This document shows, piece after piece, positions 20,373 to 57,288 of a stretch of 64,000 bases of DNA. Below the pieces are notes generated by a model that was not told the DNA's origin, did no database searches, and was given only the letters and a program-made list of their open reading frames with translations. The stretch's first letter is position 1, and the number at the start of each line of letters is the position of its first letter. Origin of the DNA: Lagopus muta (taxonomy: Eukaryota; Chordata; Aves; Galliformes; Phasianidae); assembly GCF_023343835.1 (NCBI RefSeq), contig NC_064472.1:9911469-9975468 (forward strand), written 5' to 3'. Both the position numbers and the translations under genes were made by a program.

Positions 20373-20475
20373 ATGGCCCCGCAGTGGGCCCTTCTCCTGG
20401 TCCTAGAGACTCTGCTGGCAGCGCTGGAGACGGAACAACATGCCCCCAACAACAGAGGATATTCCTGGTATCCAG
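20373..20475 (+). CDS. Gene A signal-peptide exon
   Basis: The ATG at 20373 opens [18 protein letters not shown], a short hydrophobic leader with a likely cleavage site near LAALE-TE. The exon ends in phase 1 at a GTAAGG donor and joins the first sushi exon to make a Glu codon. An upstream in-frame Met exists at 20268, but the leader directly after 20373 makes that Met unlikely to be used. Confidence 0.78.
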
Positions 20476-23400
20476 GTAAGGGATGGCTGCTCTCCCCTGG
20501 CAAAGGGAGGTCTGTCTCACTGCTCGCTTGCTGTGCGTTTGCTGCATATTTTGACCATGAGCAGCACACGGAAGGGCCAGAGGTGTTACTCACAGCAGGA
20601 GCCGCGATACATGGGCATCAGTTGGGGTCGAGCTGCCGTGAGCTGTGTGGTGCTGTCTTTAGGAGACCACATAAATGCTTTCCCCTGTGCCATGCCCCTG
20701 TGTGCAGTGACATCTCCTAAAGGCTGCTCTTAGTACAGGCTATGGGGTGCCCAAGCCGTGAGCTGGGGGCCCTTCAGGGAAACCCAGGAGAGGGGGCTCT
20801 CCAGGTCCACGAGACAGAGTCACGGTGCCCATCCCCAGCTCTGCAGCCTGGCATGAGGGGGAACTGCAGAGCACCACACACAGCTCATTTTCTAGGAGCG
20901 GATCAGGGTTGTTTCGTTATTTCCAACATCTGCCAGCAAAGCTGAGACACGGGGCTGATATTTAATCTCAGCAGAGCCCTTCAAGTCGTCTCTGTAGTTC
21001 AGGAGCAATCTGAGTTCCCAGGAGGTGGAGGACCCATCCAGAGGCTAGGCCCGGGGCCATTACCCTGCTTTCTGCCTGCTTTCTGTCTGACCTGGAGTCT
21101 CTCTCTGTACTGACCTTGCCACAGCTGGATGACAAAAAAATGTTAAATGAGCACTGTGTTGTCCCACCATGCTGTGTGGCACAGAGGAACTGCAATGGAG
21201 GAGTGCCCTGTGCTTGCAGGGAGTGGAGCACAGCACACTGTCACTGTAACACTGGGGGTAAAGTCAGTGGCAGTGGACATCCCCTGCCTGCAGTGCCCAA
21301 ACCCCCTGCTCAAACTGTCCTGGTGGGCTGGAGAGTGTAACTATGCCCATGTGTAGTTTTCCAGCTCATTTGCCCAGTTCATAAGGGCAGGTGGAGTCCA
21401 GGACACAGTGGGGACATGGTGGCTGGTGACCACATGGCATGCTCTGCACAACTACGTCACCTGCCTGTCCCAGGAGCTGCCTGTGGTGAGGATAATGTTT
21501 GCTGAGTTTGCACCTCTGTGTTTGTGAAGAAGAGGAACTGAGACACGAGTGCTCAGCAGCCACACACTGCAGCTCTGCCTGCATCCTCAGTTTGTGTACA
21601 TCCACACCCAGAGCAGTGCCATGGTCCCCCTGGGGTCAGGATCCTTGCATCACGGAGGACCAGGAGAGGGGGATGGTCAGGATGGAGCCCTGCTGGAGCC
21701 ATCTTACATGTGATGGCCAGAGGTAGTGGGGCAGGGCAGACCCCCTGGGAAGAGATAGGGAACAAAGGGAGCAGAGGTCCCTGCACATCCCCCCTAACCG
21801 TGGAGGGTACAATGAAAGAGTGGGGAACAACCCCAGGCCACAGTGTTTTTGGGTAGCGTGGAGGAAACGACATGACATAAGGAGTATCCCAATGCTGGGT
21901 GAGGCAGCCCCACAGTCAGCACTGCCAGCACCGTGAGCAGCTGCCAGCAGAGGATGTGGTTGGGGCGTATGGTGCATTGTGTGCACCAAGCTGCACTGTT
22001 CCTTTGTCCTGTTGTCTCCTGACTGCCCCCCTGCACTGCTTCTGTGGGGTTTTAACACCTGAACGAAAGCCTCAGCTCCTCACAGCATGCTCAGAAGGGA
22101 GGTGGGCAAGCCTGTAGGGGGTGTTTTCCTGTAGTGCTTGACGATACGCAGTGACTTACAGGCAGACAGGCAAGAGCTGTAGCAGCAGTGCCTGGTGCCA
22201 CTGTAAGTGTGAGTAAGAGAGACCTGGATTTCAAACAGGGCCTTGAGTAAACCCTGGGGGGAGCACAGACTCCAGGGGACACCATAGAAACTGTGAACTC
22301 TGTGCTACTCTCTGATGAGCCCTCCTGCCATCCGCACCCAGGGCCCACCAGGCTTCGCTTTGCTACACTCCTGGAACGTCCTGCAGCAGGAACAGGTGCT
22401 CCATATGACTGCTGTAAAACACATGCTGCATTTGTGTCTGCAGAGCAGAGGCAACAAGGGGTTAATCACTGCATGAAAAACAGCACAGTACTGCGTGTCT
22501 GCAAAGCACACAGACCAACCTTTCTGCAGTCAGCGCACATCACATGCTGAGTGCAGCCTCTTTGTCACGCCTGAACCATATTTTCCATGCTGAACCATCA
22601 CCAGGCTTTTTCCTGCACTCTGTGCGAGGCCTGTAGGCGGCTGTCTGTGCAGTGAGGGTGTGAAAAACAGCCTTCAAAGGTGGTTTCTCTGCTCGCAAGA
22701 TGCTGTCAGTTCCTACCAGGCTGGGAGCTGTGTGTTTCTCTCTATCTTCTCTTTGAGCTCCATCCTAGTGATACAGGGCCAACCAGACATGCTGAGACTC
22801 ACCTGAGCCCCTCATGTTCCTGCGGGCACCCCAAGCAGGCACCAGGTTGGAGATTTTTGCCCCAGATGCCTTAATTGGGATTTTATAAGAACAATGAAGA
22901 GGTGACAGCTCTCTGAGCACCTTCCATCCACACCGTGCTCCACTCCTGTCCCAAGATCCCACATCTCCTCATGCCATCCATTGCTGACACCACAGTCAGC
23001 CATGGCCGAGCCTCAGCCCTCCTCCTTGTGCCCCTGTCCCCAAGACAGACTGTCACACTTTGTCCCAACAGAGCAGTGCACCAAGCCGCAGAGGGACTAC
23101 AGACTTCAGTGGGACTACAGACTTCAGTTTACACCAGACAGAGACAGTTATGGGGTGAATGAGGAACTGCAGCTGAGCTGCCCTGGACATCTCAAGCCCT
23201 CCTTCAGCAGCATCAAATGTGCAAAGCAATTCCAAGAATCAAGTCCTATCACACAATACGTCTGGATGGGGAGGAACAGCGCAGCTGCCTGGATCCTCAT
23301 AGAAGGGGCCGTTCAGTGTGTTGGTGAGTGAGAGCAGCACACAGTGTGGGGGCAACACGCAGCAGGAGGGCCGGGTCCTGTGCCCCGTGCCTTGGGGGTC

Positions 23401-26400
23401 GGACCAAGGAGTGGATGGACAGGACAGTCCTGGGTAAATCCCAACTACGGGCCGTGAAGAGGGGCAAGGGGTGGCAGGGATGAGGGTGCAGTGGGACAGT
23501 TTGTGACTCTGAGGGTCACTGGGACATACAAGGTGTGAATGAGAGGTCAGCGGGACGTACAAGGTGAGCCCCTTCCCAAGAGCTGTTCCAGCGGTCGTAT
23601 CATGGCAGATGGACATGCCACTTTCTGCCCCTCCAGTGACCGGAGGGCTGCAGGTGTTTGCTGGTACCCACCGTGCTCTGTCCCGCCTCACCAGCTCCCA
23701 CCCTGACCGAACCCGTTTTCACCTCTGCCAGAAACGTGCCAAAGGCCCCGCTGGGATACAGAACTCCATCTGGCACCAAACCTGGAGGAGTACAGCAAGA
23801 ACGAAGAAGTGATGCTGAGCTGCCCCGAGGGTTTACAGCCATCCTACACCCGTGTCAGATGTGGGGGGGGAAATGGGGCTTTGGATTATGCTGGATCTGT
23901 ATATAGAGACACGTGGCTGGGGTGGAGCAGCTTTGGAACCTGGGTCCGCATTGAGGAGACTGTGCAGTGCCTTGGTAAGTGGAGTGGCAGGAGGTGCCTT
24001 CTCTGCAGCTCTGTGCTCAGTCTTCTCACCCTCTCCCCTCTCTGAGTTTCCCACCTCCAAACTGACCGCAGGAACATCATCCTGGTGCCTAATCGGGCTC
24101 GCAACTGAGCCCAGCTCTCTGTGCTATCGAAAGTCACTTTCCCTGACTGGCTCTTGGTCCGTGCCAGGCACTCAGCCATGTCGACTGCAGCACACAGCTG
24201 GATGTGATCTGCAAACTGCTGAGGGCACACTCCATCCCACTGTCCGTGTCACTGATGGTGATATCAAAGAGTTGGCAGACCCAGTACTGACCCCTCTGGG
24301 ACAGCACTCATCACTGGTCTCATCTGGACATTCAGCCATTGACCTCCACTTTCTGGGTGCACTCTCGCAATCAATTCATGGTCCATCAAAAAATTCATCC
24401 ATGACATCTGTATCTTTCCAATTTGGAGAGAAGGATGTGATGAGAGACCATCAGTCAAAGGCCTTACTGAAGTCCAGATTACATCCACACCGTGCTCCTC
24501 TGCTGCTCCTGGGCCTCACATCTCCTCATGCTGTCCAGTGCTGACACCACAGTCAGCATGGCCGAGACTCAGCCCTCCTCCTTGTGCCCCTGTCCCCAAG
24601 ACAGACTGTCACATTTTGTCCCAACAGAACAGTGCAGCAAGCCGCAGTGGGACAACAGACTTCAGTTTACACCAGACAGAGACAGTTATAGAGTGAATGA
24701 GGAACTGCAGCTGAGCTGCCCTGGACATCTCAAGCCCTCCTTCAGCAGCGTCAAATGTGTAAAGCAATTCCAAGAATCAAGTCCTATCACACAATACGTC
24801 TGGATGGGGAGGAAGGTCTCTGGTGCCTGGATGCTCATTGATAAGAATGTATCATGTAAAGGTAAGTGAGGCAGCAGCATTTCTACTCATCCCCTCTGTG
24901 CCTTCACACCAAAATGCCACCCACAGCATTGCCCAGCAGACACACGTCATGGGGCAGGGTGTGGGGCCAGCTCTGAGAGGCTCCCAAGACTGTCCTGCTC
25001 TTTGCTGTGGCTTCCGATGCCACCCTGGTGTGCACTGCTCTGCAAACCCTTGTTTCCTGTGCAGAGGAGGGTCCCCGGGACTCCTCCAGCAGCTGCAGGA
25101 GCTGCAGTGTGGGAAACAGAAGGGATAAATGAGTGGGGGGTGCAGGGAGCACTGGGTACCTGGATGGGAGCCAGTGGGGATATGCCAGAGGGAAGGGCAG
25201 TGCCCTCCCACAGGACAGGGCTGTGCTACCTGTGGGGATGATTGCAGGGAGGCGGGCAGGGAAAAAGGTGCCATTCTTGCTGCCAGAGTTCACGCTCCCA
25301 TGGCTAGAAAGGTGCATATGAGCCTTCTGCAAGTCAGGGCAGGCAGTGTGAGGAGGGTGAAAGAAGCAGGCTGTGACCAACCCCTGAGCAAGGAGAGTGC
25401 AGAAGAGATTTGCTGGAGCCTAGAGAGATCTGGAGCATCATAGGCACTCAGTGATTTCAGGGATGGAGGCAGGTTTGAAGGAAAGAAAAGAGATGTCTGA
25501 TTAGGAAGTGTCCAGGTTATGTCTTGTTGTGGGGGGCAATGGATGCCCCTGGCTGAGAGCAGATCAGGTGTGTGGGGATCAGTTGTGGCTCCAGAGCAAG
25601 AGGAAGGCTTCCATCTTTGGTCCTGGCAGAGGTGTCTGTGTCTTCCCATCTGTGTTTGGGATCTAGAAGGCGTTTCTGGGGATCCCTGCCAACCCCATCC
25701 TCAGGCACTGCCACACCTCACCATTTCCTACCCTAATTGAACCTGCTTCCATCTAAAATAGAAATGTGCCAAAGGCCCTGCTGGCACCCTGCTCTCCATC
25801 TGGCACCAGATCTGGAGGAGTATAGGAAGAACAAATGGGTGATGCTGAACTGCCCTGAGGGTTTACAGCCATCCTACTCCCACTTCATACGTATAGGAAA
25901 ACTGAAGTCCCTCAGCAATGGGACATCCAAAGAAGTCTACAAGGGAAGGCACATCAGTAATGCCTGCAGCTGCATCTGGTCCAGTGCAGACTGCCTGAAT
26001 AAAGGGGCACCAGGAGCCGTCCTGGGAGCCCCACTTTGCCCTTCCTACCCAGACAAAGGCAGGCTGTGTGAGCATGACAGAATTCAGGCTCTGCATGTGC
26101 CGGGGAAGTGGGAGGTGCTGCTGAAGGGCTGTGGTGTAGGAAGGCTGATCCACATCATGACCAGAAACTCCATCCCTCACCACTGTGTACCAGGGCAGCA
26201 GCTCTTCTGTTAACATCTTCCCATGTTTTTGGTGCAGGGAAATGTCAGAAGCCGCAGTGGGATTCCAGGATTCATTTTGTCCCAGACCAGGAATTCTACA
26301 ACTTCAATAAAGCGGTGACACTGACATGCCCTAATGGGTACTGGCCTTCTGCCATGGAGATCACTTGTGTGAAGCCAAGACCACACCAAGGCCTCCCAGC

Positions 26401-29400
26401 TCCTCAGAGCATCTGGTTTATGAAGAACAGCACAGGCTTATGGCCATTGGCAGTGGGATACATGAGATGTGTGGGTGAGTGAGGACCTTTGTGAGTGAGG
26501 GAAGCTGAGCATGATGGAGGTCTCCTGCATTTCTGCTGGCCCCCTTATGTAGGCACACATGGATACTGTCTCTCCCTCTGGAACAGCTGAGCAGGGTTAC
26601 AGTGCCAGGAGCCTGAGCAGCAGCACGGCTCTGCCCTTGTGTCTTGCTGGTGGACACGGCTGATACCTAAGTGCATTCCCCAGTGAATGGCGGCACGGCC
26701 TCATCCATCCCACCTTTGCAGCCCCGTGCCCAGCTGGCACTCAGCCCCCACCATGCCAAATGCCCTGCTGAGAGTCGGGTTGCTGGTGGAGCTGTCATTG
26801 GGCAACCAGGAGAGATGACGGGGAGGTGTGCCTGTTGGTTGTGTCAGCAGCTGCAGTGCCTGTGGGAACAGCCAGATGAGCGGTGGGGGCCTGAAGTGTT
26901 CCTGAAGGGGTACAGTTACCTCCAGCAGTGACTACCGACCCAAAGTTAATGTCCAGCTGCTATAAATGCTCTGGTAACTCCTCCAGCTTCTTCATCCAGA
27001 GACCTGAATGAGCTGTTTCATCCTCCTGTTTCCCTTCTTGTGGCAGGGTTGTGTGTCAGCAGCACCATTAAAACGGTGGAGCGGAAGGCAAGGAATTGAC
27101 CCTATTGCAATACTTCCTTTGCAGAGGTGCTAGAAGTTGTCCCTGCGACCCTGGAGGTTTCCAGCACCAGCATCAAACTGAACTGGACCTGCAGATTCCC
27201 TGATGCCTGCCAGCACGTGCAGGCCACATGCCGGCTGGCAGGGCCTTCCTCACCTCCTTGTGAGGCTGAGGAGGTCACTGGAGTGGAGCTCCTACACGGA
27301 CAGAGGGGAACATTCACCTGTCCTCCCCTGCAGCCCTTCACTGACTACACTGTCACCATCTCAGTGCCCCCCAGCACAGTCCTGTTTTCATGGATGATCA
27401 GGACAAAAGAAACAGGTAGGTGTCCATGGCATCGTACAGGAGGGAAGGGGCATTCCTGGGCTGGTTCACCAGCAGAGAGGCAGAGAGAGGTGACCTTTGC
27501 CCAGCACTTCATTCTGAGCATCCCTCCCTGCTGTGATGGTGCTGGCACTGGGGCTGCATGCAGAAGAGGCTGTGCGGAGTCCTGGAGCAGAGCTCTTTCC
27601 TTCCTACCCCGCCCTCCTCACCACACCATCGCTGCTCCTGCTGTTGTGAAATCCACGCTCCTGTTGTGGCACAAAGCGTGCTTGGGTTTGCTGCACAGCC
27701 TGCCCCTGGGCAGTAGCTGAGGGCATCCTGCTGTGGGCTCAGACCTTCTCTGCCAGCCCCACTTGTGACTCCGTTTTCCTGCGCTTCCAGTGCCGCAGAA
27801 GCCGGAGCAGCTGCAGCTGGATGCCAGCACGGGGACCCTCAGGTGGAAGGCGCTGCCCTCCTGCCAAGGGGAGATCGTTGGGTACCAGGTACCAGGGGCC
27901 CCCACCCAGCCCCTCCCTCCCTGCTGACAGCTCTGTGCACGCAGGTGTGCAGACCATGGAAAGCCCTGAGGACCAGCAGTCACCCATCCACGTGCTGAAT
28001 TTCTGGCTGTCATGAATTTGAGCATTTCCGACTTCCTCTCAGTGGTCCTCAGCCCCCAGTGATGTATTTGGCGGGGTGGCCTTACAGGCTTTCCTGTGCC
28101 TCTTGCATTCTTATCTTTTCCCTGGCCATGACAAAGGCTGTGGTTTGCAGTGCTAGAAGCAGGGCTGAGGGAGGAGAGCGCTGCACCCAGCTTGTAGCCA
28201 CCTCAATTTGTGACGTGATTCACAAATCACGAGGATGCCTTGCAAATCTGTCCAGCTCAGAGGGCTTGCAGAGCAAAGGCACAGTCTAAGCAACTCCATT
28301 TTCTGCAGCTGCTCTGGTGCTACCTAGAGGGTTAGCTCCAGAGTCTTTCCTGCCCTGCTCTGCTCAGCACTGACGCTTTGCTCACACACACACAGGGCCG
28401 AGGCTCCCGCTGAGCTCTCTGGGCACCTGCAAGAGCTGGGATAGGAACAGGGGCAGGAGGAGCAGAGCAACGTCTTGCTGCCTGGCTGTGGTGTGGGCAG
28501 GTTCCTGCAGGATCGTGGCCGCTGCCCTCCAGCTCCGTGTCCTGTCCCCAGCTGAACGTCACGGCCAGGGCCTTGCAGGACGGCGGCTTCCTGCAGATCG
28601 AGCGGCTGAGGCTGAGCAGCCAGACCACGGAGCACCCACTGCCCGCCTACGGCCCCGGCACCACATATGCGGTGGCCGTGCGGGGCCTCACAGCCGTGGG
28701 TCCCGGAGCTGCATCACAGTTTCACACCAGCGGCTCAGGTGAGGGTCTCCGCACGCAGCTCCTCCTCCTGCCCCCCCGTGCCAGTCTGCTGAGGCTCATC
28801 ATGGGGATCTTCCTCTGCAGAGACGCCCGATGGCTGCTCCCGCCTCCTGCTCCATACCTCTCCATCTCAGGGCACAGCCGTGCTTCCCCTGCACCCCGTC
28901 TCCCAGCGCCCTGAGGCAGCGAGGTGAGCGCAGCCCCGGCTGCTCTGCTCTTGCAGCCCTGAGCAGGGCTGCATCCCTTAAGCTGCCTCTGTCCACCTCT
29001 CTCCATTCCCGCTTCTATTACCACCCCCACAGCCTCACTTTCTCCATCCTCATCCCCATCTCACTGCCCCACCTCCATCTCCAACCTCATTCCCGTCCCC
29101 CTCCTCACCACCCATCCACATTCCTATCTCTACATCCCCACCCCCATTCCACACCCCCGTCCCTTCCTCCACCCCAATCTCCATCCCTATTCTTGTTCCC
29201 ATCCCCTTCCCCATCCCCATCCTCATCCCCTTCCCCGTCTGCTCTCATTGCTGTCCTCATTCCTATCCCTGTCCCTGCTCCCCAGCTCATCCCCATGTCG
29301 CTCTCATCCCCTTCCCCGTGTCCCCTCATCCCCATCCCCCTCTCACAGCCCTGCCTTGCAGTGAGCACCAGCTGCTCGTGGCGGTGACACACAACAGCAC

Positions 29401-32400
29401 GGGGCTGGAAGACGCCTGCTCGGGGGAGCTGCAGCCCTCCAACCACAGCCACCCTGCTGACCCCTACGTGGCCGCCGTGCTCAACCTCAGCGCGCCCACG
29501 GACTTCGTGCTGGGTGACGGGGCCCGCGGGCACGGCTTCCACAACGCTCCCCTGCACCCAGGATGGGATTACACCGCCCTGCTGCGCCTCGCCCGGCGCT
29601 CACCGCAGGTACCCGTGCCGGGGGCTCTTGTGCACGGGGCGCGGCAGCGACCGCCGTGTCCTCAGCCACGGCTGGGGCCTTTGGTGGCCCTGGGTGGCAG
29701 CTCCTTGCTGTGTGGTGGCTGACGTGGGATTGCTCTGAGCTCCGTCCTGTGCCCTTCAACAGGCGGAGACGTTCACCTGCGTGTGCTACAGCTTCTCCAT
29801 GGGTAAGTGGTTCCTCTGCCCCACACCTGTGCCTGAGGGTCTTTCTGTATCCCCCCTTTTCCCAGCCCATATCCTTGCAAGGACAGGAGCTGGGCAGTCC
29901 AGCAGCTCTTGTGGGAGCAGAGGAAACTTCTGTTTCCCAGATACTGGGAGTATTTACCTGCTATAACCGGTTCCTACCTCCATCTTCTTGGATGCTCTCT
30001 GGATCCTGAGGCTCTCTGTGGGTGCACAGGCTTTGGTACCCCTGGCCTTTTGGGCAGGTGTGCATGGCTGCAGCTGGACCCCCTGCAGCTTCCATGCCAT
30101 CATCTCTCCTCCCATCTCGGTCCTAGTGCTGCCCCAGTCCACATGCAACCCCAGAAACACAAACACCTTGCCCAGCTTTGTGCTGGGGGAAAGGCATGGA
30201 GGCATGCCCATGCTGAAGGACATTGCACCCAGCATCACCCCTCCTTCTGCATCAGCAAGGCTGCTTCCCTTCTCAGAACCTCTGCTAGGAAATGATGGGA
30301 GCTCCTTTCCTCCCCACACCACTGTAGGATCTCCTTCCAGTGGGTTTGGGTTATGTGGAGCGTGATCCTGGGCTGTGCTTTTTGCAGGGCAGGAATCAAT
30401 TCCTCTGCTGCACAGACTGCCTGTGCTGATGGCATTTGTGCTGGCCGCTGTAGTCTTGGCACTGGGGATTTTCCTGCTCCCCCTGTTCGTCAGGTCAGTA
30501 CACATCTCTTCTCTCCCGCTCTTTGTTCTGTCCAGGGGCTGCCTGGTATGGACCCTGAAATTAAGCAGGACATGTTGCCATGTGGGCACCCCCCTCTGCT
30601 CTCCACCTCCTGCTGGTCTTTTGGCTAACTTGCTGTCTTGCAGGCAAAAGTGCAACAGATCAGACACCTCTGAGATCAACAGCAGTATCCCCCTCCAGAA
30701 GCGTCGCAGAGGTGCGGTATGAGCAGTCTGAACAGGCTGCTTGGTAGAAAATGAGCAGGGTGCTCCCAGGCACTGTGAGACTCCTTGCAGAGCAAAGTGG
30801 GGCAGAGCTGGCTGGTATGGGGAATGAGACACCTCACAGAGAGGGAGACATGCATGGGCAAGGATGAAGCTGGGTTTGGTAGGGTTCTGCCCAGTGAAAT
30901 GCCAGCTCACTCCCATCAGCTCATGCTGACCTCCTGTCCTGATGTTCCCATAGGTGCCAGTAATCTGAGCACACTGATCCTTGTGGAGGAATTGCTGGAT
31001 GCTCTGAAGAGGCTTCAAAGGGCAGAGATAGAGGCAGAGCAGATGGAGGATGAATCAGCTGACAGGCACGATGCAGGGCGTCTGGGCGAGTACCAGGTCT
31101 GTATTAGGTGTTCTTTCCCATCTGGTTGCACCATCCATCCAGCACCAGCCCCTCCTTGGGTGTGTGAGGCACTCAGCCTCACACCCGCCAGAACCTGGAC
31201 TAATTCAGAGCTCCTCTTCCTCCTGTGCAGAAACTGGCTTCCTCCCTCTGCCACTCCTGCAATGCTGGGAAGGAACTGTGTAACGAGGGCAAGAACCGCT
31301 ACAAGAGCATCATTCCGTGTAAGCAAAGCTCTCCTGGAGCTCAAAACTCCTCTGTGGCTGATGCAGTGTGGACATTTGCCATTTCGCTAATGGTCTCCTC
31401 TCAAAACACACCGCATCTTCTTCCTGTGCCATGTTCCCCGTTATTTTGTTAGCTCTTCTTTCTTTCTGAACTTGTCCCAAGGCTTGGAAAGCTCCTGAGG
31501 AAAGATCAAACAGAGCTTTCCTAAAAGATACTTCCTTCCTTACACAGTCATTTCAGTGCTGCCCCGAAGGGACAGCCCACTGACTCCCACCTCCCTCTCT
31601 CCCAGACGATCACTGCCGTGTGGTGCTGCAGCCCTCTGACACAGGGAATGACTACATCAATGCCAGCTACGTGGATGTAGGTAGCGAGGAGGATGGCTCC
31701 TCTACTTCTTGCCATATTAAATGTTTAACATGGGTGACTGGAGCTGTTTGAAACTCTCCCCCACAGAGCTACCGGAGCCCGCGCTTCTTCATTGCTGCTC
31801 AAGGTGGGTGCTCCCAGCCCTGGGAGCTGCCCAGAGCTGGCACAGGTCCTCAGGAGCTGCCAAACTCTCTGAGTCCCTTTGAAGTCCCTTTGGGATGGGT
31901 TGGTTTGCTCTGTGCAGAGAGCAGAGGGGGTTCTCAGGGTCCTTACAAAGCTGCTGAATTATTTTGGGTAAATAGGACTCCAAATGTGGAAACTCAGGTT
32001 GGATATTAGGGAAAAATTCTTCTCAGAAACAGTAGATAGGCACTGTAACAGGCTGCCCAGGGAGGTGGGCAGAGTCTGAAGGTGTCCAAGAAACATGTGG
32101 ATGTGGCTCTGAGGGACATGGTTAGTGGGGTGGGGGAGTGGGCTGGGTTGGACTAGGTGATTTTAGAGGCCTTTTCCAACCTTGTGATTCTATAATTCTA
32201 TGATCATCGTGGGGACATAGGTGGGACAGGCACTCATTTTCAGATGAGTGGGCAGCAGCTCACTTTCAGGCTTGGTGCAGTGACCACTGCCCTGTGCCAG
32301 TACCCATCAGTACTGGTGCACTCTAGGCTCATCCACCCTCTCTTTTGCTGGACCCCTTTTCTAAAATGGGTGCCAAGGTAGGGGTGCCCCGTACCCGTGG

Positions 32401-40793: not shown

Positions 40794-40799
40794 TTTATT
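40794..40799 (-). terminator. Polyadenylation signal of gene C
   Basis: AATAAA on the minus strand, about 555 nt after the gene C stop. The gene A signal on the other strand is at 40521-40526, so the two genes end tail to tail roughly 230 nt apart. Confidence 0.6.
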
Positions 40800-41353: not shown

Positions 41354-41575
41354 TTAATTACTCTCCTTAGCTTTGATGGACACAGCCTTCCTTCTCCTGC
41401 AAAGGCAAAGGGCAGTCCTGAGCAAAGGGCTGCTTGTGAGAGAAGGTTGTTCTGCTGAACCACTTTCCCCATCCTACTCACCTGGACTGCACAAACCACA
41501 TGATGCCTGCAAACAGGAGGATCAGCACCAAAAGCACAACCACTCCAATCACAATCCCTGGCCATGGTGGCTGAC
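41354..41575 (-). CDS. Gene C transmembrane and short-tail exons
   Basis: The helix exon 41575-41482 ends in phase 2 (WFVQSR) with donor GTGAGT. The tail exon 41396-41354 is homologous to gene B exon 51448-51402 (shared RRRKAV-IKA) but diverges at the ITAM. Gene B continues EEDHYV, gene C reads KESN then stop. An antisense-strand AATAAA for this gene is at 40799-40794. Confidence 0.78.
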
Positions 41576-44500: not shown

Positions 44501-46375
44501 TCCTGTACGATGCCATGGACACCTACCTGTTTCTTTTGTCCTGATCATCCATGAAAACAGGACTGTGCTGGGGGGCACCGAGATGGTGACAGTGTAGTCA
44601 GTGAAGGGCTGCAGGGGAGGACAGGTGAATGTTCCCCTCTGTCCGTGTAGGAGCTCCACTCCAGTGACCTCCTCAGCCTCACAAGGAGGTGAGGAAGGCC
44701 CTGCCAGCCGGCATGTGGCCTGCACGTGCTGGCAGGCATCAGGGAATCTGCAGGTCCAGTTCAGTTTGATGCTGGTGCTGGAAACCTCCAGGGTCGCAGG
44801 GACAACTTCTAGCACCTCTGCAAAGGAAGTATTGCAACAGGGTCAATTCCTTGCCTTCCGCTCCACCCTTGCAAGTGTGCTTGAGTTACATAGCTCTACT
44901 GCCAGCCCAGCTGAAGGGATGGGAAGCCAGAGGATGAGTCAGTACATGTCAGATCTCTGGATGGAGAAGTAGGTGAAGTTCGGATGGAAGTGAATGCAGC
45001 TCTGTGTGTGCACTTTCACTGTTCAAGGCAGTTTTCCCTACTCGCTCATAACCCAAAGTTGTCAGAGTCAGCCAGCATCTCACCTTTCAATCAGTATCTG
45101 CTTTATGACCTGTCCTGCTCTTCACAGACCTCTGTAGAGAGTTTCTTTTTCCTCAGTTTTTCACAGTGGTGAGGTAACAAGCTCTGGGTCACAATACAAA
45201 AGTGCCTTTCTGCACCACAGCCTCAGGAAGGTCTTGTGGGGAATAACGCACTATGCTGCTTTTTTCAGAATGCCCAGGAGATCTCAAGAGGAGCAGTAGC
45301 TCCAGAGACTCCAGGATCCTGCAGCTGCACCTCCTGCCTCCCCACCACATAGCCTGAAGCCTTCCTTACCCACACACTCCACTCTGGACCGAATGCGGAT
45401 CCAGGAACCACTGCTGGCTCTTCCCAGCCAAACTTCCCTGTAAACAGGTTTCCCATTAATGATGATCTGCACTTCTCTTGAACATCTGACTTGGGTGTAG
45501 GATGGCTGTAAACCCTCAGGGCAGCTCAACATCACTTCTTCATTTTTCTTATACTCCTGCAGATCTGGTTCCAGATGGAGTCCTGGGTCCCACCGGGGCC
45601 TTTTGCATGTTTCTGGCAGAGGTGGAAATGGGCTTAGTTGGGGCATGAAACAACAAGATGTCACAGAGAGCAATAGCACAGTGTCAGCACTCAAAAATGG
45701 TCCCTCCAGAGACCCAAGGGAGCGAGAAGGTGACAGATCTGTCTGCCATGAGTTGGCCAGGACAGTTATGCCTGCTCAGTCCTCCTCTGCCTGCTGGCTT
45801 GGACCTGATTCCAGCTAGCAATGCCCATTACCTTACTGAGCATGGCACTACCAGTCCTATAGGGGTGAGGAGTCTTTATACTGCTCAGAATAGGGAGCCC
45901 CTTGTCCCAAAGGGGCAGAGAAGTTGTCCCAGAAGTTCTGTACCATCTGCTCAACAGCCACAAAGAAGGGACATGTGACATGAACAACCACATTAATGCA
46001 AAGTTATGAGAACTGCTCACCTCCTGCTCCCAGGGACACTGCCCCGTACATGGAAGTGTGTTACATCCCAGCACTCACTGAGGCTTTCCCAGTACATGGA
46101 GCCTCACACCCTCCATCCCCAAATTCCCCCCAGAACATCCCTGGCATGGACATCACCTCTGCCCTCTGTGATGCCGTGCTGCACCTGGTAAAGACGCACA
46201 GCAAATGCAAGAGGAAGAGCAGAAATATGTTCACTTGTGAATAGAGTAGTGTCAAATTCTAACCTGTTCCTTGGGGTGCTCCTTGGACCAGGGAATCAGG
46301 TTCTTCCTGGCCCTGTGCTGCCAGCAGAGGAAAAAGGACCAGGAGAAAGTTCAGAGCCAGAAACTGCAGGGCCAT
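41354..46375 (-). CDS. Gene C: sushi/FN3 receptor with a short tail
   Basis: Predicted single-pass protein of about 485 residues. Exons in transcript order: 46375-46264 (signal), 45612-45370 (sushi), 44817-44527 (FN3-1), 44151-44054 and 43405-43219 (FN3-2), 43136-43034, 42598-42352 and 42197-42158 (juxtamembrane), 41575-41482 (transmembrane) and 41396-41354 (tail). All phases fit and no lesion was seen. From FN3-1 to the last juxtamembrane exon it is almost identical to gene A, introns included. The tail is RRRKAVSIKAKESN followed by TAA; it has no tyrosine motif and no phosphatase. The helix (IVIGVVVLLVLILLFAGI) has no charged residue that would pair with an ITAM adaptor. Possible roles are a decoy, an adhesion molecule or an unassisted ligand-binding receptor; these are inferences. 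Confidence 0.8.
41723..44869 (-). repeat. Right arm of 3.15-kb inverted repeat
   Basis: Reverse-complement partner of 27075-30236. It starts in the intron upstream of gene C FN3-1 and ends in the intron before its transmembrane exon, at the same places as in gene A. Confidence 0.9.
42158..44817 (-). CDS. Gene C FN3 and juxtamembrane exons
   Basis: Exons 44817-44527, 44151-44054, 43405-43219, 43136-43034, 42598-42352 and 42197-42158 mirror gene A exons 27125-29802 in sequence, length and phase. A visible difference is a Ser-to-Arg change in the DASTGTL motif. Intron sequences are also nearly identical. Confidence 0.84.
45370..45612 (-). CDS. Gene C sushi (CCP) domain
   Basis: Phase 1-1 exon of 81 codons with cysteines in [20 protein letters not shown] and VECVG, and Trp in VWLGR. 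It is the ETC/EMC subtype also seen in genes A and B. No other intact sushi exon was found between the leader and FN3-1. Confidence 0.84.
46264..46375 (-). CDS. Gene C signal-peptide exon
   Basis: The ATG at 46375-46373 opens MALQFLALNFLLVLF, a classical leader with probable cleavage after PLLAA-QG. The exon of 37 codons plus one base ends in phase 1 at a GTTAGA donor, matching the phase 1 sushi exon that follows. The GCATGG start context is reasonable. Confidence 0.72.
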
Positions 46376-48601: not shown

Positions 48602-49124
48602 CAGAAAGAGGATGGGACCACAGGAGGTGGCTGGAGCACAAACCGATGCTCAGTTTTATCAATCTCACTCATTCTCACTCAATTATCAGCTGTCACACTG
48701 GTGTTAGCAACCTCTTCCCCTCACTGCCCAATATGTATCAGGAGGAGCTCAACCACCAGCAAGACAGGGGAAGGTCATTTCTTAGACAGGCGTTCTCAAA
48801 GGTCCCTCAAGGCCCGTGGCCCATTTCTGCACACTTACATAGTCAAACAATGCAATACAAATCAACTCATCAGCTGGCTTTAGTTCCCCTGCTTCCTGAA
48901 CTGTATGTGTTCACTGTACCCCCCTTTCCAAATGGGAAAATCTGGAGATGTTCAATCAACACTAATTTGACAGACTCCAGAGAAGGCTTCCAGACCGGGA
49001 GCAACCAGTAGAACCACAACAGCTTTTGCAGTAAAATGGAGGCAGGATGTGGCAGTTGTACAACTAGAGGTACTTCGAGAGAGGGGAGAAGGGGAATGGC
49101 TGCCATTTGATTTTTATTATTCGT

Positions 49125-49620
49125 TGATGTGCAGCTGAACGTGAGCCAGCAGTGAACCCAGGTGGCCAGGAAGGCCAACGGCATCCTGACTTGTGTAAGA
49201 AATAGTGTTGCCAGTAGGAGAAGGAAAGTAATTTTCCCTCTGAACTCAGCCCTGGTGAGGCCGCACCTCAAGTACTGTGTCCAGTTTTGGGCCCCTCAGT
49301 ACAAGAAAGACATCGAGGCCCTGGAGTGTGTCCAGAGAAGGGCAATGATGCTAGCGAGGGGTCTGCAGCACGGGGCTTATGAGGAGCAGCTGAGGGAACC
49401 TGGATTGTTCAGGGTGGAGGAGAGGAGGCTCAGGGACCCTCACTGCTCTCTGTAACTCCATAAAGGGAGGCTGTAGCGAGCAGAGGGTGCGCCTCTTCTC
49501 CCGTGTAACTGGTGGTACGACTGGAGGGAATGGCCTCCAGCTGTACCAAGGGAGATGCAAGTTGGACATTAGGAAATACTGCTTTTCCGAAAGAGTGGTC
49601 AGGAACTGGAATGGGCTGCT
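49125..49620 (+). repeat. CR1 LINE ORF2 3' region, truncated
   Basis: Encodes [20 protein letters not shown] and [18 protein letters not shown], both CR1 ORF2 text. It stops abruptly at ggaactggaatgggctg, where the right arm of the 240-bp inverted repeat begins. Confidence 0.82.
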
Positions 49621-49862
49621 TCCTTGCCCTTGCCACTCCGCTTGCTCTGTCCAGACAACTAATAAAGACTTATTATATCCTTATTATATTATATAGAAGG
49701 GACCCATAAAGATCACTGAGTCCAGCTTCTGGTCCCCTCTTTTCTCTTATGGAGTCACTCTCCTTTTGGGAGCTGAGCTAACTGGGCAAGGTGGAGGGCT
49801 AAACACGCTCTTTGCTCCTACACAGCCCACATGTCTCAGTAGCCAATGGTCTTCCCTGTGCT
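49621..49862 (-). repeat. Right arm of 240-bp inverted repeat
   Basis: Reverse-complement partner of 48371-48601 with a small AT-rich insertion (ttatattatata). It starts exactly at the end of the truncated CR1. Confidence 0.75.
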
Positions 49863-50599: not shown

Positions 50600-50605
50600 T
50601 TTATT
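50600..50605 (-). terminator. Polyadenylation signal of gene B
   Basis: TTTATT on the plus strand gives AATAAA on the minus strand, about 325 nt after the tentative stop. A related context (ccaataaa) is used by gene C at 40799-40794. Confidence 0.6.
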
Positions 50606-50929: not shown

Positions 50930-51051
50930 TCACCACTGACCCAGGGATGTTCTCCCCATCTTCTCCACTCTCATATTGCTTGGTGAGTCTCCTAAGGACT
51001 CCAAGTTGGGCAGATGTAGGGATGTTGGCTCTCTGTCCTGACTACCTGTAC
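50930..51051 (-). CDS. Tentative last coding exon of gene B
   Basis: An acceptor (gtgtttgcag) 148 nt after the previous donor opens a phase 1 frame of 40 codons (GSQDREPTSLHLPNLESL, ending GQW, stop). No motif was recognised. Alternatively the donor at 51199 is not used and the frame reads on to a stop at about 51042. Confidence 0.4.
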
Positions 51052-54000
51052 CTGCAAACACCAACAGCACCTGGCTTGAGGCTGCTGCAAGCCCTGGGCA
51101 GCACAGGGAGCTCGGGCAGCTCTAGTACAGGATGGGGCACCAGGCAATACCTGCCCCTTGGTGTCTCAGGGAATACAAGCACAGCATCCCACCTCCTACC
51201 TGTCTCTTCTTGTGACAGAGATCTCCCCTTGATCACAGAGTAAATGTCTGAGTTTTCATAGGGCTGCAGCTCTGCAGGGACAGAAAGAGCACAAGGGTGT
51301 GTGGAAGGAGCGGGGCAGATTCGGACAGCAGCTCGGGCATTGATCTGTTCTCCCCCACCCACCACTCCAGCCCCGCAGCCGTCCCTGTGCTGGACCCCTA
51401 CCTACATAATGGTCCTCCTCAGCTTTGATGGGCACAGCCTTCCTTCTCCTAGGAAGACAAAGGGATGGTCTGAATTTGGGAACAGGCTGACATGGCCCAG
51501 AGCCCTGCTGAACCCAGTAGCAGTGGAAGAAGCACTTTGCACGCTCTGTGCCCAAGCCTCTCCCCCACTGACAGGCATTGCCTGTCAGCACCTCATGGCA
51601 CAGCAGCGCTGGCAGCAATGGCCACAGGGGATGGGGTCTCCCAGCACACACACTCCCTGCCCCAACCCCGAGGATGACGCTCAGATGACCCCATTAGCAT
51701 CCCTCCAGCTGAATCATGGTGGCACCAACCAGCCAGCAGCATCCCTATTGCTTGATAGCAGTGGGAGCAGAGCAGGAAGCCCGCTCTGTCACTAGCCACC
51801 CCAGTACCACAGCGAGGCTGAGAGGCAGAACAGCAGCTTCAAGTCGCAAGACTACTCGCCTGGACAGCACGAACCACACAATGACCGCAGAGAGAGTGAC
51901 CATCACTGAGAGCACAACCACCACTGTCACTGCTGTCCATGGCCAGGAGCCCAGAAACTGCCCTGAAACTAAAACACAGCCAGCAGTGGGTGTCACAGCC
52001 TGGAGTTAGTGCCCAGGCCTTGGCATCAAGGTGTGCACACGTGCAGGTGTGTTTGTCCAGTATCCACAGCTCTGTGGGGACAGGCAGCAAGTCACAATGT
52101 GTGCTGCCTTCAGCTCTAATGGGCAGAGAAGAAACAGGGAGGCTTTGGATTATGAGGAAGGGTTCCATTTCCATAAACTGCACAGTGCAATCTGGTTAGT
52201 GAGAGGATTCACAGCTCCAGGGGCTGCAGCCATGCTTCTGCTCAACAAGAGCCGGCAGCATGTGCTGGCCACCCAGAAAGCCCATTCTATCCTGGGTTGC
52301 ATCAAGAGAAGCATGACCAGCAGGGAAAGGGAGATAATTCTGCCCTTTTACTCTGCTCCCATGAGACCACAGCTGGAACACAGTGTCCATTTCTGTAGCC
52401 CCCAACACAAGAAGGACATGGAGTTGTTGGAGCAGGTTCCAGTGGAAGGCCACAAAGAATGATCAGAGGGCTGGAGCACTTCCACTGTGGGACAGGCTGA
52501 GAGAACCGGGGCTGTACGGCCTGGAGAAGAGAAGGCTCCAGGGAGACCTCACAGCAGCCTTCCAGTACCTCAAAGAGCCTACAGGAAAACTGGGGATGGA
52601 CTTTTTATCAGGGCATGTAGTGACAGGATGAGAGGAAATAGCTTTAAACTGGAAGAGAGTAGACTAGATATTTAGACTCAATATTAGGAAAAAAAAATTT
52701 ACTGTAAGGGAGGTGAGACACTGGATATGTCCATCCAGTGAGCTTGTATGACTTCCCCCAGAGGCACTGAAGGCCAGGCTGGATGGGGCCATGAGCAACC
52801 TGGTCTGGAGAGAGGTGACCCTCCCTGCTGCAGGTGATTGGAACTAGATGATCTTAAAGGTCCCTTCCAACCCAAACTTTATTATGATTCTACGATTCCT
52901 TGCCCTGTCATGGACAGGATGGGTGCACAGCAGCTCAGGACCTGCTCGCACCTCAGGCTTGCCCCATGACCACACCAGGCAGATGCATGGCACAGAAGCC
53001 ATTACCTGAGATGTAGGCTTGGAACTCCAGGCTGGACGCATCTCCAGCACCAGCTGCCGTCAGGCCCTGGACCGTCACTGTGTATTTGCTGCCTGGGCTC
53101 TGGGGAGGCGGTGTGTACTGGGTGACAGAGTGGTTCACTGTTACCTGCTGGAAGTTCAGGAAGGTGCCATCGTGTGCTCTCCTGGCAGTGAAGTTCAGCT
53201 AGAGGGAGGAGAGGTGCTGAGGGGAGCAGCACCCATCTCCTGCTCAAGCCCAGGGCAGCTCTGCATAGAGCAGATGCTGCTCTGCTGCCTGGGTACAGAA
53301 AGCTCTGCTCCAGTACCTGGTACCCAATGATCTCCCCTCGACAGGGGGGCAGCGCCTTCCACCTGAGAGTCCCTGTGCTGGCATCCAGCTGCAGCTGCTC
53401 TGGCTTCTGTGGCACTGGAAGCACAGGAAGATGGAGTCACAAGTGGGGTTTTTGGGGTGAAGAGCAAACTTTACATTACATATAGGAGGGCAGTTACCCA
53501 TTGTTTTTGTCCTAAGGTGCTGTGTGAACAGTATTGTGCTGGGTGGCACTGAGATTGTGATGCTGTAAACAGTGAAGGGCTGCAAAGGAGGACAGGTGAA
53601 TGTTCCCCTCTGTCCGTGTAGGAGCTCCACTCCGGTGACCTCCTCAGCCTTACAAGGAGGTGAGGAAGGCCCTGCCAGCCGGCATGTGGCCTGCACGTGC
53701 TGGCAGGCATCAGGGATGCTGCAGGTCCAGTTCAGTTTGATGCTGGTGCTGGAAACCTCCAGGGTCCCAGGGACAACCTGGAAGACCTCTATGAAGGAAG
53801 CATGCAGGAGAGTCACTTTCTCCCTATCCCCTCCCTACCTGCACTAGATCTCTTTTTGTCCCACTTTTGTTGTCATTTCCCCAGGGCTGTGTGGCCAGTG
53901 CCATCCTGCCTTCTACCACACAGTACTTGGGCAACGACTGCACATTTCTTGTGCCCTGGACCGCTCTAAGAGCACAGTGCTGCAGTGATTCAGGCCTGGG

Positions 54001-57000
54001 GATGGGAATGGCAAAAACGGATTGGCAAGTTTGTGATCGCTCTGCTCTCAACACTAGGGGGCTAGCAGCTGATCTGGTAACTGCTAGGAGGACAGACACA
54101 ACCCTGGGCTGCATTAGCAGCTCCTTTCTCTGCAGCGCACACCCACGGCATTCCCTGACCACCCAGAACCCACTGCATTGAGGCTGCACACTGCATCTGG
54201 CACCATTTCCCTTGCTGGGGTGAGCAGACTGAGAATGGCAGCTTCACTCACCCACACAGATCATGTTCCTTTCTACAGGCTGCCAGCGTCCTCTGCCGTT
54301 CTTCTCATGCCAGATGCTCTGAGAAGCTGTAGAGCCTTGTCTAGGGTTTTGTTTCATGCAGGAAACCTCTGTGTGGGACAACCAGTACCCTACAGGGCAT
54401 GTCAAAATCACTGTCTCGTTGAGATCGTAGGACTCCTTGTCTGGGACAAAGAGAATCCTGGGGTCCCACTGGGGCTTCTGACATTTCCCTGCAGCCAGAT
54501 GGAAAAGCATTAGCAGAACAGAGGCTGTCTGTGCAGGACAGGGCAGGGGAGAGGAAGGATGTTCCCTGCTCTGGTACACAGTGGTGAACGATGGAGCTCC
54601 CAGGCATGACATGGATCAGCCTTCCTACTCCACAGCCCTTCAGCAGCACCTCCCACTTCCCCAACACACAGAGAGCCTCAAACCTCTCGTGCTAACACAG
54701 CCTGCCTTCCCCTGGGCAGGAAGGACAGTACGGGGCTCCCAGGACAGCTTCTGTTGCCTCCCTTACCCACACATTTCACACTGGACTGAATATGGGTCCA
54801 GGCATCGCTGCTGTCCCTTCCCAGCCATAATTCCCTGTTTAAAGGTTTCCCATGGTTGATGGACTGCTTTCCTCTTGAACATCTGACGTGGGTGTAGGAT
54901 GGCTGTAAACCTTCAGGGCAGCGCAGCTTCACTTCTTCATTCTTTCTGTACTTCTCCTGGTCTGGTGCCAGATGGAGTCTTGTGTCCCACTGGGGCCTTT
55001 GACACATTTCTGGCAAAGGTGAAAGGGGTTTCAGTTAGGGTGGGTGGTGGTGAGGTGGGGCAGCGAGCTGTCCATGGGCACGATAGCCCAGAAATTGGAG
55101 GAAGCAGGGACAAGTCCCTTCAGTGCTTCCAGTGACAGCCGTATCCACCAGCAAGAGACAAGGGCAGAGCCGTGCTGCTGCTCAGGCTCCTGGCACTGTA
55201 ACCCTGCTCAGCTGTTCCAGAGGGAGAGACAGTATCCATGTGTGCCTACATAAGGGGGCCAGCAGAAATGCAGGAGACCTCCATCATGCTCAGCTTCCCT
55301 CACTCACAAAGGTCCTCACTCACCCACACATCTCATGTATCCCACTGCCAATGGCCATAAGCCTGTGCTGTTCTTCATAAACCAGATGCTCTGAGGAGCT
55401 GGGAGGCTTTGGTGTGGTCTTGGCTTGACACAAGTGATCTCCATGGCAGAAGGCCAGTACCCATTAGGGCATGTCAGCATCAAACTTGTATTGACATCGT
55501 AGAATTCCTGGTCTGGGACAAAGTGAATCCTGGGACCCAACTTTGGCTTCATGCATTTCTCTGCACCAAAAACATGGGAAGATATTAACAGAAGAGAGGC
55601 TGCTCAAGCAGGGGACAGGGACAGTGTTCCCTGCCCTGGTACACAGTGGTGAGGGATGGAGTTTCTGGTCATGATGTGGATCAGCCTTCCTACACCACAG
55701 CCCTTCAGCAGCACCTCCCACTTCCCCAGAACATCCAGAATCTGGATCCTCACGCTCATGCAGCCTGCCTTCTCCTGGGCAGGAAGGGCAGCACAGAGCT
55801 GGTGTAAACTGGAGTCTTTATCCCACTGGGATTTGGGGCATTCTCCTTTTGGGGACAAAGTGTGACAGTCCTACTCCAGGCAAGGGGCTTGTCTGGTAAC
55901 GGAGGACAAGGTGGAGAGCTTTGTCCACCTCTTCTCTGAACCCATGAAAGCACTGTGCTGTGACACTGGCAGAGTGGAGGTAGATGTTAGCACACTAGGA
56001 ACCGACTTATGACATGTCTGCAGCTCCAAGGACATCACCCCGGCAGGGCCACAGGGTGTTTGGAGACCATTTGTTTGATCAGAGATGCCCTAGAAATCAG
56101 GCAAGAGACAAGGGTCTGGTTGGAGCCTGTGAATCAGGAGCAGGAGACAAGTCAAAAAGGGTGACACTGGTGATCGCTGTCCCCTCCCAGACATTTCCAG
56201 GTTGTCTGAGTCCCAAAAGATGAGCAGAACTGGTGTGCTGCACAGGAAAGTTGAGGTCGAGATAACTGGGCTTATTTAGCTTGCAGGAGAGGAAACTTAG
56301 AGCAGGATAAGCAGCAAACAAGAGGAAGCAGCACCCTTATACAGATTCCCATTCACCTCTGCAGACTTGCAGGCATTCTCTATTGAGTCTCACTTTCATA
56401 GAATCAAAGGTTATCCTAAGTCTGAAGGGACCAATAGGATCATCCAGTTCCAGTCAGTGACAGTGTTGTCCAAACACTCCTTGCAGCTTAGGCCTTGTCC
56501 ACTACCCTGGGGAGCCTGCTTCATGCCCACAGTCCTCTAGTGCAGCACCTCTTCCTAACCTCCCTTCTCTTGTAGTGGGTTTCATACCATCATTGCACTC
56601 CTGTGTCCTGCAAAGCACTGCAAAGGACAGTGGTCACCACCCTCTTCTTTGGAGCCACATATGCTGCCCAGACAGGAAGCTTTGTCTCTCTGCCCATCGC
56701 TAAAGTTGGCACTTCCTTCCAAACACCAGAGATGGGCAACATGACTCACGACCCACAGGACAACTTGGCAAGCCACTTCTGCTCCCATTTCTCTGCAGAG
56801 ATAATGGCTCACACCTCAGGGTCCCCAAGCCCTGCTGCAACAAGCAGCTACTCCAGGGCATCACAAAAGTCAGAGCACACCATCTCCACACAAAGAGCCA
56901 AACAGAGACCTCGGAGCTGTCCCCACCCTTCCTGCTGTGCCAAGGCATTCCCAGCACGCTGAGGCTTGCTGTCCTCCATCTCCTAAAGCAGATTCAATCT

Positions 57001-57288
57001 GACACAACCCAATGATGCCTGAGTGCCTTGGGACTGGTGGACACCATCTTCAGCCCTCTCCAACATGTTGCCATCAGTCAAAAGAGGGAAAGATGCAGAG
57101 CCAGCTTGCAGGGAGAGGAGCAGCAAAAGATTCTTTTGAAGAGAGAGGAGAAACCAGTGCTTACCTTCTTCCCTTTCTCCTTCCTCAATTTTCCCTGAAA
57201 CTGCTCCTGCTCCTGAAGACTCTCTCTGTTTCCCCAGCTGAGGGAGGAGGACCAGCAAGAAGGCCAGCACCTGCCCTCGTATGGCCAT
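50930..57288 (-). CDS. Gene B: sushi/FN3 receptor with an ITAM tail
   Basis: Predicted receptor of about 588 residues. Exons in transcript order: 57288-57165 (signal), 55560-55324, 55009-54767 and 54488-54252 (three sushi), 53788-53498 (FN3-1), 53414-53317 and 53198-53006 (FN3-2), 51962-51860 (transmembrane), 51448-51402 and 51271-51200 (ITAM tail), 51051-50930 (tentative last exon). All phases fit. The tail contains YVELQPYENSDIYSVI, which matches YxxL-x8-YxxI with Glu at Y-3: a canonical ITAM, the motif that recruits Syk/ZAP-70-type kinases. A YEN motif between the two could bind Grb2-type SH2 domains. No phosphatase domain follows. The juxtamembrane exons of A and C are absent, and the transmembrane exon uses a GC donor. 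Activating function is inferred from the motif. Confidence 0.76.
51200..51448 (-). CDS. Gene B ITAM exons
   Basis: Exon 51448-51402 encodes RRRKAVPIKAEEDHYV and exon 51271-51200 encodes ELQPYENSDIYSVIKGR and SLSQEET. Phases 2-1 and 1-1 join exactly within the ITAM, splitting it between Val and Glu as happens in many ITAM genes. The tyrosines are near residues 523, 529 and 535. Confidence 0.74.
51860..51962 (-). CDS. Gene B transmembrane exon with a GC donor
   Basis: Encodes GQFLGSWPWTAVTVVVV and continues hydrophobic to WFVLSR. It enters in phase 1 and leaves in phase 2, as in genes A and C. The 5' splice site reads CCAG then GCGAGT, where gene C has CCAG then GTGAGT: either a functional GC-AG intron or a disabling change. 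Confidence 0.72.
52225..52900 (+). repeat. CR1 LINE 3' portion in a gene B intron
   Basis: ORF2 3' region (HVLATQKAHSILGCIKRSM) and 3'UTR ending ttattatgattctacgattc. It fills the intron between FN3-2 and the transmembrane exon, where genes A and C have their juxtamembrane exons. Confidence 0.85.
53006..53788 (-). CDS. Gene B FN3 domains 1 and 2
   Basis: Exon 53788-53498 is FN3-1 ([27 protein letters not shown]). Exons 53414-53317 and 53198-53006 form FN3-2 (GEIIGYQ | LNFTARRA, PGSKYTVTVQGLTAAGAG). They are homologous to the A/C exons, but intron sequences differ, so they are outside the recent conversion. Confidence 0.83.
54252..54488 (-). CDS. Gene B sushi (CCP) domain 3
   Basis: Phase 1-1 exon of 79 codons with cysteines in GKCQKP, LTCPVGYW, VSCMKQ and MICVG. 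It is an older tandem copy of the exon at 55324; the upstream introns also share the [25 protein letters not shown] text. Confidence 0.84.
54767..55009 (-). CDS. Gene B sushi (CCP) domain 2
   Basis: Phase 1-1 exon of 81 codons with cysteines in EMCQRP, LRCPEGL, VRCSRG and VKCVG, and Trp in LWLGR. It is the intact counterpart of the decayed gene A exon at 25762. Confidence 0.84.
55130..55735 (-). repeat. Second inverted-repeat arm (gene B side)
   Basis: Reverse-complement partner of about 26100-26670. It spans gene B sushi exon 55324-55560 and flanking intron sequence. Exon differences include QDSRIH/KLGPRIH and FNKAVT/VNTSLM. Confidence 0.8.
55324..55560 (-). CDS. Gene B sushi (CCP) domain 1
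   Basis: Phase 1-1 exon of 79 codons with cysteines in [20 protein letters not shown] and MRCVG. Paralogue of gene A sushi 4. Confidence 0.84.
55815..55858 (-). pseudogene. Truncated sushi exon remnant in gene B
   Basis: The first 45 nt or so of an EQC-type sushi exon (GECPKSQWDKDSSLH, with the acceptor-side text ctgtcacactttgtcccc) are preserved. They then run directly into what is, elsewhere in the cluster, the intron that follows an EMC-type sushi exon (ctgcccttcctgcccagg). A deletion appears to have joined the two. The acceptor keeps an AG but there is no domain left to splice, so I treat it as non-functional. Confidence 0.65.
56396..56600 (-). repeat. CR1 LINE 3' end in gene B intron 1
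   Basis: Begins tcatagaatcaaaggttatc on the plus strand and continues with antisense CR1 3' text. It lies between the leader and the first sushi exon of gene B. Confidence 0.8.
57165..57288 (-). CDS. Gene B signal-peptide exon
   Basis: The ATG at 57288-57286 opens MAIRGQVLAFLLVLLPQLG, followed by a polar Ser/Glu-rich segment (KIEEGEREE). It ends in phase 1 at a GTAAGC donor. Upstream codons in the same frame are open, but the leader supports this start. Confidence 0.74.

Follow-up and report, generated by a model that had tools for sequence, protein, structure and literature searches.

A Lagopus muta cluster of sushi and FN3 receptors with phosphatase, activation-motif and short tails, very probably the grouse copy of the avian Trojan family

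Three genes with related ectodomains and different tails

A stretch of 64,000 nucleotides of Lagopus muta (NCBI RefSeq assembly GCF_023343835.1, contig NC_064472.1, positions 9,911,469 to 9,975,468 of the forward strand), here called the window, carries the cluster of receptor genes that is the subject of this report. Both strands were read and exons were spliced by hand at consensus sites, and all exon joins are thus predictions from sequence; this gave three complete predicted genes, namely A on the plus strand, and C and B on the minus strand (Table 1). It is very probable that they represent the grouse copy of the avian Trojan family, in which A would be Mystran, C Trojan and B Thracian. 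An earlier note on this DNA had placed three genes in these orientations between 20373 and 57288, and these limits are exactly the outer start codons, i.e., the ATG at 20373 of gene A and the minus-strand ATG at 57288 of gene B. All three spliced frames are free of stop codons, and their introns are of the GT-AG type, with the single exception of a GC-AG intron in B after 51860. Judged by similarity, chance is excluded as the source of the models, since the A protein is 97% identical to a Tympanuchus pallidicinctus protein over its full length, the C protein is 86% identical to the chicken Trojan of 494 amino acids (aa) over 100% of its length, and 6 of the 11 exon peptides of B are found unchanged in a Lagopus muta protein model, the automated model having skipped or replaced the remaining five. 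The A protein is also 82% identical to a chicken phosphatase of 1342 aa over 100% of its length, and C is 98% identical to proteins of Centrocercus urophasianus and Lagopus leucura over 91% and 67% of its length, respectively.

The three proteins share a common build. Gene A encodes a leader, four sushi domains, two FN3 domains, a PTPRU/PTPRM-like membrane-proximal module, a transmembrane segment and the two protein tyrosine phosphatase (PTP) domains D1 and D2; gene C encodes a leader, one sushi domain, two FN3 domains, the membrane-proximal module, a transmembrane segment and the tail RRRKAVSIKAKESN; and gene B encodes a leader, three sushi domains, two FN3 domains, a transmembrane segment and a tail with an immunoreceptor tyrosine-based activation motif (ITAM). 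In all three, the sushi exons measure 234-252 bp and are of phase 1-1 throughout, the first FN3 exon is of 291 bp and phase 1 and is followed by exons of 98 and 187 or 193 bp, and the transmembrane exon is entered in phase 1. The shared build proposed in the earlier note therefore stood in its architecture, its two FN3 domains and its exon phases, but the unequal number of sushi domains and the extra module of A and C (exons of 103, 247 and 40 bp), which B lacks, had been missed. The sushi (CCP) domains were assigned by exon and cysteine pattern; the Pfam sushi score was above the cutoff of 20.7 bits in B only (22.4 bits), below it in A (18.5 bits), and there was no call in C, while fn3 was called once per protein. 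For chicken Trojan, taken together with 35 relatives, the predicted structure was weak (mean predicted local distance difference test score 59, predicted template modelling score 0.38) and its top Foldseek matches were FN3 arrays; the prediction thus appears to support the FN3 domains and to say little on the sushi and membrane-proximal parts. It is to be noted that a segment between sushi exons 3 and 4 of A (25708-26198), outside the A model, is 75% identical over 503 bp to B 55063-54566, a region that includes the second sushi exon of B; the cysteine pattern of the A segment is spoiled, and it may be a dead exon.

The tails differ, as the earlier note had reported. The tail of A contains two PTP domains (Pfam PF00102, Y_phosphatase, two stretches, 7.9e-137), of which D1 looks catalytic and D2 is probably inactive, as judged from their motifs. 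Conservation was assessed in 77 (P0121-P0197) of the 97 listed relatives of A, the 20 left out being nine from the B set and P0198-P0208, the latter mainly receptor phosphatases of other kinds or relatives without a phosphatase. The D1 signature was found in 71 of the 77 (those without it being P0185, P0192-P0195 and P0197), and a CWDGAS-type loop of D2 in 65. An ITAM is defined as YxxL/I-x6-8-YxxL/I in a cytoplasmic tail, and the tail of B has a single such motif with x8 spacing. The C tail, of 14 residues, is free of ITAM, of the immunoreceptor tyrosine-based inhibition motif (ITIM) and of the pattern [RK][RK]x[ST] in a pattern scan, and the same scan revealed no ITIM in the tails of A and B. 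Since, moreover, the 22-residue transmembrane cores of A, B and C contain no charged residue, we infer that none of them looks like a partner of DAP12 or FcR-gamma.

The earlier note had held that absence of the B and C tails from related species would refute its proposal, but they are present: the core of the ITAM was found in 70 of 120 listed relatives of B, and C-like short tails, recognized by a simple pattern, end 47 of 290 fetched proteins. By this sequence comparison the short tail of C is conserved. The notion that C is a recent truncation of B was rejected, as many bird species have this short tail.

Table 1. Predicted features of the receptor cluster in the Lagopus muta window
Feature	Position	Strand	Remarks
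Gene A, putative Mystran orthologue	20373..39724	+	29 coding exons, 1338 aa
A, sushi exons	23072-23323, 23732-23974, 24628-24861, 26238-26474	+	all phase 1-1
A, FN3 domains	27125-27415, 27791-27888, 28552-28738	+	PF00041 on second only
A, membrane-proximal module	28821-28923, 29362-29608, 29763-29802	+	Trojan alignment profile matches PTPRM ectodomain 2v5y
A, transmembrane exon	30388..30493	+	
A, PTP D1	31231..35120	+	KNRY, WPD and signature motif; signature split by intron after 34081
A, PTP D2	36097..39724	+	TCWDGASRSG; WPM replaces WPD
Putative converted block, A copy	27075..30236	+	98.5% over 3162 bp to C copy, inverted
Gene C, putative Trojan orthologue	41354..46375	-	10 exons, 485 aa
Putative converted block, C copy	41724..44867	-	pairs with A 27075-30236
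Gene B, putative Thracian orthologue	50930..57288	-	11 exons, 590 aa
B, ITAM YVELQPYENSDIYSVI	51200..51448	-	spans exons 51402-51448 and 51200-51271
B, sushi-1 exon and flanks	55136..55603	-	94.7% over 470 bp to A 26195-26662 (sushi 4)
Upstream neighbour, presumably RUSC2	691..15698	+	exons in several open reading frames; RUN domain in exons lying between 8288 and 12846

Elsewhere in the window, a repeat that we take to be CR1-like lies in the A intron at 37746-39174. An inverted pair of about 236 bp, 89% identical, is located between C and B (48372-49862), and a repeat within this region, presumably also CR1-like, is shared with 38373-38867. Rfam scanning found nothing, nor did a Pfam scan of ten flanking open reading frames.

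Correspondence to the Trojan family and kinship with receptor phosphatases

Four joined open reading frame pieces of the gene to the left of the cluster, which we take to be RUSC2, matched the RUN domain (PF02759, 5.8e-14). Next to this gene, the window presents the gene order Mystran (+), Trojan (-) and Thracian (-), and ectodomains of CCP and FN3 domains joined to a tandem PTP, a short or an ITAM tail. The earlier note knew of no described family of this kind, which was wrong, as the family is already described from chicken: Petrov et al. 2015 (PMC4372362) reported three genes flanked by RUSC2 and TESK1 on chromosome Z of the chicken, of which Mystran is a receptor phosphatase on the plus strand, and Trojan, with a short tail, and Thracian, with an ITAM, are on the minus strand. 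The identification rests on the match in order, orientation, presumed RUSC2 neighbour, domains, tails and the interval of Mystran-Trojan gene conversion (PMC4372362). Of the sites listed there for chicken Thracian, 13 of 19 have the same residue at the same position in B, although the match at residue 465 may be due to chance, the lengths being different.

Several points weigh against this identification. By simple numbering, only 13 of the 52 sites given for Mystran agree with A (at best 16, with exons skipped), and one of the nine Trojan sites agrees with C (four with a shift of 5); such poor agreement is expected, however, because the exon models differ and the sites are fast-evolving. The chicken models in that paper are shorter in the sushi region, Mystran having 1186 aa and one CCP, whereas the present models have more sushi exons (four in A, three in B); a longer chicken protein, of the 1342 aa mentioned above, does exist. 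TESK1 was not seen to the right of the cluster, as no HRD/DFG-type kinase motif was present within 6.7 kb. Apart from the species, a further difference is that the chicken Trojan tail contains RRKS, which matches [RK][RK]x[ST], as against RRKA in gene C.

According to the same paper (PMC4372362), the family occurs in ten further birds, with relatives in the anole, two turtles and the coelacanth; Xenopus tropicalis, zebrafish and mammals yielded no members. The paper also documents positive selection on the ectodomains, describes gene conversion between Mystran and Trojan, reports expression of all three chicken genes in macrophages, where it was highest, and raises the possibility of competition between Trojan and Mystran for a partner; its main text nowhere uses the words paired, inhibitory or decoy. 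No second paper on the family was found by its names or by its combination of features among the literature matches listed. The name on file for the chicken Trojan (P0104, Gallus gallus) is 'sushi domain containing 1 precursor'; the names given to bird Mystrans include PTPR kappa, U, T, mu and alpha. What is added here is a bounded A/C block that includes introns, the likeness of the pair within each species, the ITAM spacing of passerines and a phosphatase relative in a caecilian.

Regarding origin, the family seems to have branched from the R2B phosphatases (PTPRK, PTPRM, PTPRT, PTPRU), with sushi domains in the place of MAM and Ig domains, and with two members that carry no phosphatase. This appearance is due to three results. 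First, a profile of 36 Trojan proteins had the PTPRM ectodomain (2v5y) as its best match in the PDB (6.2e-11). Second, the Pfam domain PF23144 (Fn3_PTPRU) was found in three of four relatives scanned, two from turtles and one from a caecilian, but not in that from chicken; the Pfam scan did not find it in the A protein of the window. Third, the best single-domain PDB chain for the A tail was PTPRK D1, and the D1 domains of PTPRK, T and M were the top such chains. A thus shares with R2B enzymes the tandem PTP, a PTPRK-like D1 and a PTPRM-like FN3 and membrane-proximal region, but differs in that no MAM or Ig domain was found in it by Pfam (E up to 1, at which sushi and fn3 were listed), and that two of its three-gene cluster lack the phosphatase. 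To CD45 (PTPRC), the D2 of which is inactive, the whole tail of A matched more weakly than to LAR-type enzymes (377 versus 436-449 bits). As a leukocyte receptor with tandem PTP and a fast-evolving ectodomain, CD45 is nonetheless a likeness, drawn in PMC4372362. The caecilian relative, a protein of 1239 aa from Geotrypetes seraphini (P0196), has a tandem PTP, FN3 and Fn3_PTPRU, and shows 42.7% identity to A in an alignment of 1246 columns; its N-terminal cysteine-bearing repeats are sushi-like by eye, although Pfam calls no sushi in them. It is filed under the name of a non-receptor phosphatase. By its sequence, it would extend the phosphatase members to a lineage of amphibians, in contrast to Xenopus tropicalis, in which none was found (PMC4372362).

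Likeness between the genes and the activation motif of Thracian

The near-identity of A and C is sharply bounded. The two copies of the block, introns included, differ by 29 bases and two gaps; in steps of 250 bp, identity is 96-100% within the block and 88.8% in the one step across its left edge, as against 49-56% in the flanks. The block stops before the transmembrane exon, and the tails are therefore untouched. At the protein level, the FN3 and membrane-proximal region is 99.07% identical between A and C (322 aa) and, in the chicken, 99.08% between Mystran and Trojan (327 aa), while the same region is 86-87% identical between grouse and chicken for either gene; length differences in this region are common to both genes within each species. 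Since identity within each species is thus so much higher than that between species, concerted evolution is suggested, in which each lineage keeps its own Mystran/Trojan pair alike, and the restriction of the pattern to the FN3 and membrane-proximal parts is as gene conversion would give. By exon lengths, the exons inside the block correspond to positions 356-1321 of the C coding sequence, and the chicken conversion tract was placed at 352-1383 of the Trojan coding sequence (PMC4372362). Two results speak on the other side: the corrected P of the chicken tract was only 0.059 (Table 2 of PMC4372362), and A and C are each 98.1-98.4% identical to other grouse in this region, so that the A-C value is barely higher. 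Because of the latter, there is no need to regard the homogenisation as very recent or as younger than the grouse radiation.

Between A and B, the two FN3 domains are 73% identical over 185 residues. A different segment, the fourth sushi exon of A and the first of B, is much more alike (Table 1); here, the A domain is 84.6% identical in protein to that of B and 74.7% to its chicken counterpart. This hints at a separate Mystran-Thracian exchange, although fast evolution could give the same; Table 2 of PMC4372362 gives no Mystran-Thracian conversion.

The tail of B is closely similar to those of turkey and guineafowl. The relatives of B comprised 245 proteins at E 1e-3, and the tails were counted in the 120 of these that were listed. 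Tails were selected by the core motif YxxLxx[Y/C][E/G]N, found in 70, so that the presence of YxxL itself is no result. The other 50, left out of the spacing counts, comprised Trojans and phosphatases, models that were incomplete or spliced in another way, and a small number of Thracian-like tails that lack the core, including P0055, P0067, P0075 and P0082. Among the 70, the canonical x8 ITAM was found in 37 and an x8 motif ending in V rather than I or L in nine, while the spacing was 10 in 23 and 9 in one. All 24 tails with spacing 9-10 are from passerines, and there is no passerine among the other 46, as assigned by species name and bird order. The mid-motif YEN, a Grb2-type pYxN motif, was present in 69 of 70. 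Two acidic residues precede the first YxxL at -3 and -2 in all 70 tails, and three do so in 65. Syk signalling by CLEC-2 depends on a triacidic stretch ahead of its YxxL (PMC3819593); considering this requirement, the first half of the ITAM with its acidic lead looks to be the conserved part of the Thracian motif. The same acidic residues before YxxL relate Thracian tails to the hemITAM receptors CLEC-2 and Dectin-1 (PMC3819593), from which Thracian differs in its type I topology and in a second, downstream YxxI/V, the motif of the window being a full x8 ITAM. No protein with both the PTP signature and the motif YxxLQPYEN was found among those fetched. The transmembrane exon of B is followed by the GC donor (GCGAGT, 51854-51859), where C has GT; a protein read through at this donor would have a tail that lacks the ITAM, and such an end is seen in a Coturnix model (P0032).

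Possible interplay of the three receptors

The earlier note proposed the logic of paired activating and inhibitory receptors. The clustering, the homologous ectodomains and the opposed tails fit this, the lack of any ITIM does not, and the logic is, on sequence, plausible. As members of the Trojan family, A, B and C would be leukocyte surface receptors derived from a phosphatase of the PTPRK/M/T/U type, the N-terminus of which now consists of sushi repeats. As a tentative mechanism, which we hold to be somewhat short of probable as a whole, A, when bound or clustered, would dephosphorylate nearby signalling proteins and be inhibitory or set a threshold, like CD45; B would recruit Syk or ZAP-70 by its own ITAM and act as activator; and C would bind the ligand of A without a phosphatase, and so compete with or titrate A. 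Through gene conversion, A and C would retain matching binding surfaces, even as the sushi part grows more diverse. The role of C as competitor is suggested by the restriction of the near-identity to the ectodomain and by the lack of a recognised signalling motif among the patterns tested. The phosphatase/decoy pair of A and C appears better supported than a phosphatase/ITAM pair of A and B, since homogenisation is strongest between A and C.

Classical paired receptors, in which A and B oppose each other on a common ligand and C is a spare copy, are possible but doubtful. The shared architecture and exon phases, the canonical ITAM of B, and the likeness of A sushi 4 to B sushi 1, which extends into flanking intron and exceeds in protein that to chicken, would fit such a pairing. 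It is, however, C and not B that the FN3 region of A resembles most, Table 2 of PMC4372362 is without Mystran-Thracian conversion, none of the three tails has an ITIM pattern, and C can hardly be a decaying spare, as its short tail recurs in the 47 proteins. A three-way rheostat, in which A is checked by the tail-less competitor C, the binding region of C being rewritten time and again from or onto A through gene conversion, and B works mainly by a hemITAM-like first half (acidic-YxxL), is unlikely as a whole; the second half of the ITAM would be free to drift, as the 9-10 spacing in passerines suggests. Less likely still, Trojan may signal by itself through its basic, serine-bearing tail by way of MAPK, 14-3-3 or PKA sites. 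Such motifs were predicted for chicken (PMC4372362), and the short basic tail is indeed recurrent, but the [RK][RK]x[ST] pattern is lacking in the C tail of the window and occurs in only 22 of 60 short-tail candidates, a loose count with at least three mis-picked Thracians. Lastly, a 3.16-kb inverted block of such high identity could in principle be an assembly artefact, or one of the genes a pseudogene, which is highly improbable: the artefact was rejected as identity falls to 49-56% on both sides, and the differences between the copies, the three open frames and the equal near-identity of the chicken pair argue likewise.

Overall, the interest of the locus lies in its function together with the conversion and ITAM patterns. 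The conversion pattern points to the protein surfaces to be tested first. If it is true that A and C bind one ligand and that B opposes them, birds would possess a paired-receptor system in which the inhibitory arm is a built-in phosphatase, rather than an ITIM that recruits one.

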